A DNA stretch of 64,000 bases, taken from Ktedonobacterales bacterium. Its GTDB lineage: Bacteria; Chloroflexota; Ktedonobacteria; Ktedonobacterales; DATBGS01. Location of the stretch: assembly GCA_036557285.1 (NCBI GenBank), contig DATBHW010000044.1:1-64000 (forward strand), written 5' to 3'. A program made the position numbers and the translations under genes. Under the pieces are notes generated by a model. The model was not told the DNA's origin. It did no database searches and saw only the letters and a program-made list of their open reading frames with translations. Positions 19,881 to 45,231 of the stretch are shown here, piece by piece; positions within the stretch are counted from its first letter, which is position 1; every line of letters starts with the position of its first letter.

Positions 19881-19904
19881 TTGTAGCGCCGCCTTCCAGG
19901 CGGC
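19881..19904. repeat. Dispersed palindromic repeat copy (sufB/D-sufS gap)
   Basis: TTGTAGCGCC followed by the hairpin core GCCGCC-TTCCA-GGCGGC. The same sequence is found near 24085-24112 and within 27652-27777, and related forms occur at 16234-16338, 17023, 37303 and 45098. It is flanked here by further GC palindromes (19861-19880 and 19928-19948). Confidence 0.75.
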
Positions 19905-25715: not shown

Positions 25716-27491
25716 TTAGTCCTCCACGCCACGCTTGGAACCGGCGCGACCGGCGCGGGCGGTTTCCTCTTTGTTACCTTGCGCCTTGGAGCGCGCGGCG
25801 CCATTCGTTCCGCTCCCCACCTTCTCCGGCAGGTCTTCTTCGGCGTCCGCTGTAATGTCAGCCTCCTCCGCCTCCTCATCTGCGGCGTCCTCTTCTTCAG
25901 CGGCGGCATCCGCCTCTTCCTCGGCTTCATCTTCCTCCGCATCCTCTTCCTCGTCCTCCGCCTCGTCCTGGGCAGTATCAGCCGCAGCTTTGCCGCCGCC
26001 AGCCCGACGGAGCGCCAGGCGCTCTTTCAGGGAGAGCTGACGACCGGCAGGCTCTTCTTCCTCTTCCTCCTCCTCTTCTTCAACCTCCTCAACCACCCGC
26101 GCGCGCGCCGCGCCGCGCTGCGCCAGACGGCGCTCCAGGCTGGCGCGGCGGGTACTCCCAACGGTGATAGCGCCTCTGGGCAAGCCAAAGAGCGCGGGAT
26201 GCGTCGCCACACCCGTTGGCACCAGCAGGTTGAGGAAGGTGCGCGTGACGGTGATGGCGGTGAAGAGGCTGATGACCACGCCCAGGAACAGCGTCGTGGC
26301 AAAACCGACGATGATGCTCGCGCCAAAGTTGCTGCCGAACCAATACAGAATGCCGCAGGTAATCAGCGTAGAGGCGTTGGAATCGCGGATGGAGGGCCAG
26401 GCCCGCTTGAAGCCCACATCAATGGCTTGCGAAAGCGTTCTTCCTCCACGTAACTCTTCTTTGACCCGCTCAAAGATCAGCACATTCGCATCAACAGCCA
26501 TACCAATCGAGAGGATGAAGCCCGCGTAGCCAGCCAGCGTCATCACGACGGCCAACATTTTGAAGACCGCGAAGGTGAACCCCGCGTAGAGAATCAGTGC
26601 AATATCCGCCAGCAAACCAGGCAGGCGATAGTAGATAAGCATGAACAGGATGACGATGCCCAGGCCAATAGCGCCCGCGACCAGGCTATCATTCACCGAT
26701 TGCTGGCCCAGCGTCGCGCCGATCAGGCGCTCGCTGACCAGCGTCAGCGGCACCGGCAGCGAGCCATAGCGCAGCAGCGCGGCAGTCGCCTGCGCCTGGT
26801 CCAGCGTCATATTGCCGCCGGAGATTTGCCCCTGGCCGGTAATCTGGGTCTGGATGACCGCTGATTCAATAACCTTCCCATCCAGGGTGATGGTGAGATA
26901 TTGCTGGACATGGCTCTGGGTATAGTTCGCAAAAGCGCTCTGGGCCGAACCCTTGAATTGGAAAAGAATTTGAGGTTTCCCGGTTTGCGAGTCAATATTC
27001 GCATTGATGCTGTTGGGGTCAAGCTGATCGCCCGTGAAGACTACCGGATACTGCCCCTCCTTCACCACCGTACCCTCGGTTAACCGGTTAGGGCCGGTAT
27101 CAATAATCTCCAGCTTGCCTGTCTGGCCGAGCAGCGCCACCGCATCCTGCTCGTTCTTCAGGCCGGGGAGTTCAACCGAAATGCGGTAATCGCCTTGCAA
27201 CCGAATGACCGGCTCCGAGACGCCCAGGCCGCCATTGACGCGCCGCTCGATGTTATCGCGCACGTCGGGCATCAACTTCTTTGTCTCTGCGTTACACTGG
27301 TTGGGCGGCAAAGAGCATGACGCCTCTAAGAGTACCTGCACGCCGCCCTGAAGGTCCAGACCCTCGCGCACTTGCAAATCATTGTTATAGGCGCCAAGGT
27401 GGATGCCGCCGTTATTTGGCGCGTCAACATAGGCTGCCCCTGCTGCCAGCAGGAGAATAAAAAGGAGGAGAAGCAAAGTGCTACGCCGCAT
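25716..27491 (-). CDS. secD: Protein translocase subunit SecD with long acidic tail
   Basis: A 591-residue SecD starting at [11 protein letters not shown] (27491). Extension to 27662 would run through the MITE-like repeat and is rejected. The [16 protein letters not shown] motif, the first periplasmic domain with [11 protein letters not shown] and six TM helices with [17 protein letters not shown] are canonical. After the last helix come about 145 cytoplasmic residues dominated by Glu, Asp and Ala, with Glu runs of up to 11, then a mixed basic end. Such a tail is not part of the family core. It forms an operon with secF. Confidence 0.95.
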
Positions 27492-27651
27492 AAGTTCATT
27501 TCCCCTTCGCTGCACGCGAGCGATGATAAGTTCAGGATAAGGGCGCCAGGGCGCAGCAGAAGGCGCCCAGGGAAGCGCAGCCGCGCCTCTGAGTTCCACG
27601 ATTCGCACAGAGTATAGCCCTACATGCCCCGCACTGTCAAATGCAGGGCAG

Positions 27652-27777
27652 GGTTCCACCAACTATCGGGGGCTGCCACTTGTAGCGCCGCCTTCCAGGC
27701 GGCCAGCGTTGGCCGCCTGGAAGGCGGCGCTACAAGTAACGGGTCTCGCTTGCCAAAACCTCATGTCTGGTGGAACC
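27652..27777. mobile_element. MITE-like element with 9-bp target-site duplication
   Basis: A 126-bp element begins GGTTCCACCA and ends with the inverse TGGTGGAACC. It is flanked on both sides by GCAGGGCAG (27643-27651 and 27778-27786), a perfect 9-bp direct duplication. The interior is an inverted pair of the dispersed palindrome (CTTGTAGCGCCGCC ... and its inverse GCGCTACAAG). It has no coding capacity, so it was probably moved by a transposase in trans. A diverged sister element is at 45071-45231. Confidence 0.85.
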
Positions 27778-27880
27778 GCAGGGCAGAGGCGCTCGGCGGA
27801 ACCTTCAATGAGGTATGACGAATAGAGGGGGACATGTGCAACATGCCTGCGCCCGCCTGGCGCGCGAGGGAGGGGCGCTC

Positions 27881-28609
27881 TCAGCGTCGGGCAGGGGTGC
27901 GCCGCTTGAATCGGGCGCGGAAGAGTTCATAGATCGTCAGGCCGATATACACCAGCGAGCGCCTGACGTTGATCGAAGACGACTCCAGGGTATAGCGGGT
28001 GGGAATCGGCACTTCTTCGATAAGCATATGCTGTAAGACCGCATCAACAATCATCTGGCTGTCGAAGACAAAATCATCGGAATAGGCGTGATAGTTCAGG
28101 CGCTCCAGCACTGTGCGGCGATAGGCTTTGAAGCCGCTGTGCAGTTCGCTGAAGCGCGTCCCCAGCAGCAGGTTTTCGATAGCCGTCGTGAGCTTATTGC
28201 CCCAGTAGCGATAGAGCGGCATGCCGCCCTGGCGGGGATCAGCGCCCCTGGCAAAGCGCGAACCGAAGGTGAAATCAGCGCGGCCTTTCAGGATGGGTTC
28301 TACCAGGCGCACGATGGATTTGGGGTCGTATTGATAATCCGCGTGGAGCAAGACCACTACCTCAGCGCCCATGCGCAGCGCCTCATCGTAGCACGTCTTC
28401 TGATTCGCCCCATAGCCCTTATTGCGTTCGTGCAGAATGAGCATCAACCCCAACTCGCGGGCTACTTCAGCGGTGCGATCACGGCTGGCGTCATCCACCA
28501 CCAGCACCTCAGCCTCCAGTTCCGCCGGGATTTCCCGCACCGTCTGCGCCAGCGTCTGTTCGGCCATAAAAGCTGGCAAGGTCACAACCACACGCGCGCC
28601 CATCCCCAT
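27881..28609 (-). CDS. Family 2 glycosyltransferase (dolichyl/undecaprenyl-phosphate-sugar synthase type)
   Basis: A 242-residue GT-A enzyme. VLVVDDASRDRTAEVA supplies the nucleotide-binding Asp-Asp, VVLLHADYQYDP the D-x-D-like metal site, and SGFKAYRR is a conserved acceptor-loop motif. It has no obvious TM helix, unlike DPM1 forms with C-terminal anchors. It would transfer a sugar from a nucleotide donor to a lipid phosphate or other acceptor for envelope glycans. A MITE lies between it and secD. GGAG lies upstream of the ATG at 28609. Confidence 0.87.
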   Translation of the reverse strand: MGMGARVVVTLPAFMAEQTLAQTVREIPAELEAEVLVVDDASRDRTAEVARELGLMLILHERNKGYGANQKTCYDEALRMGAEVVVLLHADYQYDPKSIVRLVEPILKGRADFTFGSRFARGADPRQGGMPLYRYWGNKLTTAIENLLLGTRFSELHSGFKAYRRTVLERLNYHAYSDDFVFDSQMIVDAVLQHMLIEEVPIPTRYTLESSSINVRRSLVYIGLTIYELFRARFKRRTPARR

Positions 28610-45070: not shown

Positions 45071-45231
45071 GGTTCCACCAATGATCGGGGGTTGCCGCTG
45101 GTAGCGCCGCCGTCTCGGCGGCCAACGTTGGCCTGCTGGCGCCGTGGCCTGGCGGGCGAACGCTCGCCCTGGCGCAGCGTTCGCCGCCGAGACGGCGGCG
45201 GTACAGGTGGCCCCCGCTTTTTGGTAGAACC
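45071..45231. mobile_element. MITE-like element, diverged sister of the 27652-27777 copy
   Basis: It begins GGTTCCACCAATGATCGGGG, like the other copy (GGTTCCACCAACTATCGGGG), and ends TGGTAGAACC, the terminal repeat with one mismatch. The interior is an inverted pair, GTAGCGCCGCCGTCTCGGC and GCCGAGACGGCGGCGGTAC, in which the loop sequence has changed on both arms in a compensating way. Flanks GCGCCCCC and GCGCCCTA suggest a degraded target duplication. It has no coding capacity. Confidence 0.7.

Follow-up and report, generated by a model that had tools for sequence, protein, structure and literature searches.

A MITE shell that probably carries a REPIN upstream of secD in a Ktedonobacterales genome

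Upstream of secD in a Ktedonobacterales bacterium lies a short DNA with inverted ends between two copies of GCAGGGCAG. What kind of element is it, and does its strong internal hairpin belong to it? The earlier note had read it as a non-autonomous MITE. Direct reading of the window, that is, the whole stretch of 64,000 nucleotides analyzed, confirmed a real element of 126 bp (27652-27777), whose inverted ends GGTTCCACCA/TGGTGGAACC match perfectly over exactly 10 bp and which contains no ORF of at least 80 aa. Two inverted REPs (a REPIN) lie between two outer arms, here called the shell. The features of the site, and a second family member in the window, are the following:

25716-27491, minus strand: secD, recognized by its Pfam SecD domains, with the likely ATG at 27491
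27611-27640, minus strand: promoter-like TTGACA-18-TATACT (11/12) facing secD, a consensus match only
27643-27651, no strand: left copy of the target-site duplication, GCAGGGCAG, read directly
27652-27681, plus strand: A arm of the shell, 30 bp, opening with the terminal repeat GGTTCCACCA (27652-27661)
27681-27734, plus strand: REPIN, TGTAG...CTACA, placed by its REP matches, with outer limits taken from the REPIN-less shell; its halves are the REP at 27682-27703 and the inverted REP at 27712-27733
27734-27777, plus strand: B arm of the shell, 44 bp, closing with the terminal repeat TGGTGGAACC (27768-27777)
27778-27786, no strand: right copy of the target-site duplication, GCAGGGCAG, read directly
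27881-28609, minus strand: gene for a family 2 glycosyltransferase (Pfam PF00535), flanking the element opposite secD
45071-45231, plus strand: second family member, 161 bp, with an A arm at both ends and no clear duplication; its REP pair is at 45101-45122 and 45183-45204

The large hairpin described in the earlier note is indeed a strong internal fold. As RNA, the region 27640-27790 has a predicted folding energy of -95.6 kcal/mol (z -8.2) and a stem of 28 pairs; its shuffles average -61.9, and 0 of 200 equal the value of the real sequence. It is not merely internal structure, however, but an inverted pair of GTAG-type REPs. Searches of Rfam gave only sub-gathering matches, mostly to microRNA hairpins, which we judged to be chance matches due to the strong stem.

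Between the element and the likely secD ATG (27491, minus strand) there are 160 bases, rather than the 152 bp given previously. The promoter-like site at 27611-27640 begins at a distance of 2 bases from the left duplication, so that the insertion leaves it whole and falls just upstream of the -35 box; the site itself is a consensus match and not evidence of use. Lying between the stop of the glycosyltransferase gene and this promoter-like site, and having a very stable fold, the element could now act at this locus chiefly to set a boundary, in transcription or at the RNA level, as a terminator or stabilizing hairpin, a role that would be compatible with the composite origin proposed below. The single terminator-like match inside the element is weak, though, and we consider such a role rather unlikely; any effect of the element on transcription near secD is one that we infer.

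The shell belongs to a large family. Taken with its complement, GGTTCCACCA has 152 exact occurrences in the 5.1-Mb genome, where the reversed control has 9, which excludes chance as the source of the ends, and a BLAST search with the element and its flanks gave 125 matches in its own genome (E up to 0.001), a number that includes pieces and both strands of the palindrome. Pairing of ends blind to duplications yielded 68 copies. A perfect 9-bp duplication flanked 26 of them (mean 0.41 and maximum 3 when the right flanks were shuffled), and a duplication of at least 8/9 was found in 36 (shuffled mean 0.57, maximum 4). These duplications, together with the excess of end motifs, show that the designation MITE was right: the element is multi-copy and non-coding, has inverted ends and is flanked by a target duplication of 9 bp. 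Nor is it a single copy, the outcome that the earlier note had set against its own claim, as the 152 exact end motifs genome-wide and the 68 blind pairs make plain.

A second script, which favored duplication-bearing pairs where ends competed, called 90 elements, reduced to 89 when a spurious pair at locus L047 was dropped. Among these 89 copies, from loci picked through matches to the element, its ends or the REPs and therefore not a random sample of the genome, the duplication was 9/9 in 34, 8/9 in 15, 8/8 in nine and 7/9 in 10, and was not recognizable in 21. Where the duplication was perfect over 8 or 9 bp or had a single mismatch, the copies measured 124-460 bp, save one implausible pair of 664 bp. 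For 57 duplication-bearing elements no paralogous empty site was found, the sole matches being those of L102 to its own locus and to L138, which overlaps it on one contig.

The perfect duplication upstream of secD had been taken as a sign of recent transposition. The closest copy, however, is just 90% identical, and the nearest among the 22 shells of the same length differs at 8 of 74 positions. Retention of a perfect duplication by 34 of the 89 copies would fit an age of about 5% divergence (0.95^18 = 0.40). Recency is thus not supported, since the nearest copy is so distant and perfect duplications are so often kept; in this family, a duplication without mismatches does not prove that an insertion is recent.

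The hairpin is repeated still more often than the shell. The REP motif GTAGCGCCGCC-N5-GGCGGC has 675 exact copies in the genome, and its reversed control has 0. Among 46 relatives of the order it was absent from 43 and present in 1, 1 and 10 copies in the other three. In G003, a genome of the same order and a different family, 10 exact copies were counted against 1 for the control. A sample of 86 REPs, consisting of the genome places listed first, in contig order, placed 38 inside shells and 48 outside, several of the latter being intact pairs with unrelated flanks. The window itself holds a lone exact REP, outside any shell, at 19883-19904. Strict pairing gave 57 distinct REP pairs in the loci examined, 13 of them outside shells, and no duplication of 2-10 bp was found around these 13 free REPIN pairs. 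The hairpin therefore has the properties of a REPIN, a GTAG-tagged palindromic REP in high copy whose inverted doublets also occur on their own.

Enzymes of the kind that would act on such repeats are encoded in the same genome. It contains six Y1_Tnp matches, and the three that were examined for this assignment (L083, L084 and L085) are REP-associated tyrosine transposases (RAYTs) that score above the NCBIfam NF047646 cut-off and have in common an HVH motif and QNPxKANL. The L085 RAYT matches TnpA-REP 4er8 (E 3e-4) and is flanked on both sides by exact REPs, and L083 and L084 are near variant REPs. Within this set identity to L085 is 52-57%, with each gene near a different REP variant, and the three may possibly represent matched RAYT-REP sets. 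By analogy, the RAYTs would mobilize the REPs described here.

The REPIN has a fixed place in the shell. A REP pair is held by 88 of the 90 TIR-bounded pairs, the exceptions being the spurious pair and one REPIN-less shell. An A arm is combined with a B arm in 77 copies, 76 of which contain a REP pair; among these 76, 74 have a B arm of 44 bp, and most A arms measure 27 or 30 bp. In twelve further REP-bearing copies, 45071-45231 included, both ends are A arms. Most REP-pair cores are 53, 104-105, 176-177 or 248 bp long. Whether a core is short or long is tied to the subtype of the A arm, an association matched in 124 of 20000 permutations, and this suggests joint movement of shell and REPIN; a comparison of nearest shells for a co-inherited core class gave a null result (18.8 of 74, versus 19.9 shuffled).

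The REPIN-less shell, L118:522-589, is 68 bp long, and in it arm joins arm directly, with a duplication of 7/9. Compared with the filled copies, it is without exactly TGTAG...CTACA. A genome search with this shell gave 41 matches, all others partial (most were scanned, not each by eye), and no further REPIN-less shell was found in the loci examined. Its A-arm subtype is also present in filled copies, and the shell could be an ancestral form or could have arisen by excision or deletion. This one precise REPIN-less shell is consistent with mobilization of the REPIN by a RAYT.

It could be argued that the element is an ordinary MITE to which the hairpin is native, that no separate REPIN exists, and that REP-like copies elsewhere are degraded fragments of this MITE; the hairpin's one position in 88 of the 90 called TIR pairs and the single known REPIN-less shell would agree with this. 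We find it quite improbable, because more than half of the sampled REPs (48/86) are not in shells, several of them forming intact pairs whose flanks are unrelated, RAYT genes are flanked by the same or variant REPs, REPs outnumber end motifs by 675 to 152, and a precise REPIN-less shell exists.

The element is instead very probably a composite of two non-autonomous mobile DNAs, a MITE shell that carries a REPIN, often with a third repeat of about 71 bp in the REP loop. According to this proposal, the outer shell of about 68-75 bp with ends GGTTCCACCA would be the MITE, on whose ends a DDE-type transposase would act in trans, its insertion generating a target duplication of 9 bp (sometimes 8 bp). 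The inner hairpin of two inverted GTAG-type REPs would be mobilized as single-stranded DNA by the RAYTs that the genome encodes. The REPIN would have entered the shell at a fixed position and early in the family, after which shell and REPIN would have multiplied jointly; later, some REPINs would have acquired a longer spacer and some the repeat of about 71 bp in the REP loop. The enzymes acting on shell and REPIN, and this order of events, are what we infer.

The third repeat (CCCTTCGGGAAGGGCCGCTTG ... CGCGCGTCCC) lies inside REP loops, for example at L052:2021-2270, L071:3971-4216 and L119:625-875. It is found in 17 of the 19 cores of 165-190 bp and in eight of the nine of 240-265 bp, and in 0 of the 49 shorter cores. 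In the loci examined it has 43 distinct contexts, 29 of them two-ended, of which 21 are 71 bp. These two-ended repeats have GCGCCGCC on the left in 27 of 29 cases and the other REP half on the right in 27 of 29, and in all cases the repeat has one orientation only relative to the REP. A tentative extension of the composite is a nest of three gene-less elements, each mobile in its own right, with a DDE-type MITE shell enclosing a RAYT-type REPIN, whose REP loop would receive an undescribed repeat of about 71 bp with specificity of site and orientation, a different enzyme amplifying each layer. A REP-targeting recombinase might place the 71-bp layer, and, if the nest is real, the inner layers would gain copies from outer transposition.

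The prediction that a transposase with these ends should exist in the genome or its relatives gained no support from the five Pfam families searched. No own-genome transposase bounded by GGTTCCACCA was found among the families PF01609, PF12762, PF00872, PF03400 and PF01610, for which the genome has 5, 0, 1, 1 and 1 matches, respectively. Two candidates for the shell's mover were rejected: L056, whose PF01609 element has other ends (CAGGGCTATTTAA), and L162, an IS1-like remnant with other ends. The L056 element, at L056:1370-2711, encodes a PF01609 transposase between ends CAGGGCTATTTAA and is flanked by a perfect 9-bp repeat, TCCTGATGC. Pairs of ends at most 4 kb apart gave no full-length element in the loci scanned for them. 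Because no transposase with the shell ends was found in these families, it is the duplications alone that point to a DDE-type step.

The shell was likewise in no relative searched. A search of 61 genomes (its own and 60 others) gave matches in two others, both of the same phylum; these matches lie in the hairpin and span only 27-32 bases. None of 46 relatives comes near its own genome in the number of end motifs, although several exceed their control. In G038, of family f2, GGTTCCACCA was counted 37 times versus 1 for the reversed control, and other f2 genomes are likewise in excess, which could come from codon use or from a related element. A 19-mer of the B arm matched one Planctomycetota MAG contig, in a contig database that may leave out its own genome; with no end or REP around it, the match was judged to be chance. 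Viral contigs gave 0 matches to this 19-mer.

To our knowledge, 9-bp duplications are not expected from single-strand transposition of the IS200/IS605 type. As such duplications flank 34 of the 89 copies and no TIRtron/TIRYT arrangement, that is, a pair of GGTTCCACCA ends with at most one mismatch, surrounds any of the six Y1_Tnp matches (one lone 1-mismatch shell end lies near the Y1_Tnp gene of L082), it is highly improbable that a tyrosine transposase moves the entire unit together with its ends, in the manner of the TIRYT genes that Di Nocera et al. 2013 describe as flanked by TIRs, even though the genome has six Y1 transposase genes and published TIR families are described as adjoining such genes (PMC3733652).

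Several known systems resemble parts of the composite. Dimers of GTAG-type REPs inside long palindromes are described for, among others, A. variabilis GTAG-15 and H. neapolitanus CGTC-1, and GTAG repeats are reported in the phylum Chloroflexi (PMC3733652). As in those palindromes, tagged REP dimers occupy here a fixed place in a repeated palindrome; the main text of that paper, however, does not mention target duplications, whereas the outer unit here has them, at 9 bp, and its authors found no REP-free palindromes in A. variabilis and H. neapolitanus, whereas one REP-free copy is found here. The hairpin-forming inverted REP doublet in many copies, with RAYT genes that have flanking REPs, is like the REPIN/RAYT systems in the description by Bertels and Rainey (2011), who defined REPINs, but about half of the sampled REPs here (38/86) are inside a separate MITE shell, unlike the REPINs described there (PMC3116915). 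MITEAba12, as reported, has a similar size (about 113 bp), inverted ends starting with GG, a 9-bp duplication and no gene, and differs in its other ends, its co-resident parent IS, ISAba12, and the lack of a REPIN (PMC6382973). A Porphyromonas gingivalis MITE is likewise described as carrying another repeat class, the cargo there being a minisatellite and here a REPIN (PMC4596501). In the titles and abstracts listed by searches of an open-licence library, no description of a MITE shell with a REPIN was found.

REP dimers in palindromes have been known since 2013, in a description that, as far as it deals with them, gives no account of the nature of the outer palindrome (PMC3733652). Since the outer unit bears target duplications, it is a transposon in this genome, and REPIN copy number can therefore rise without a RAYT. 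This matters for the persistence of REPIN populations and for counts that equate each REPIN with one RAYT event. The order of events is testable through the REPIN-less shell, through the ladder of core sizes (53, 104-105, 176-177 and 248 bp) and through the fact that the 71-bp repeat has one orientation only.
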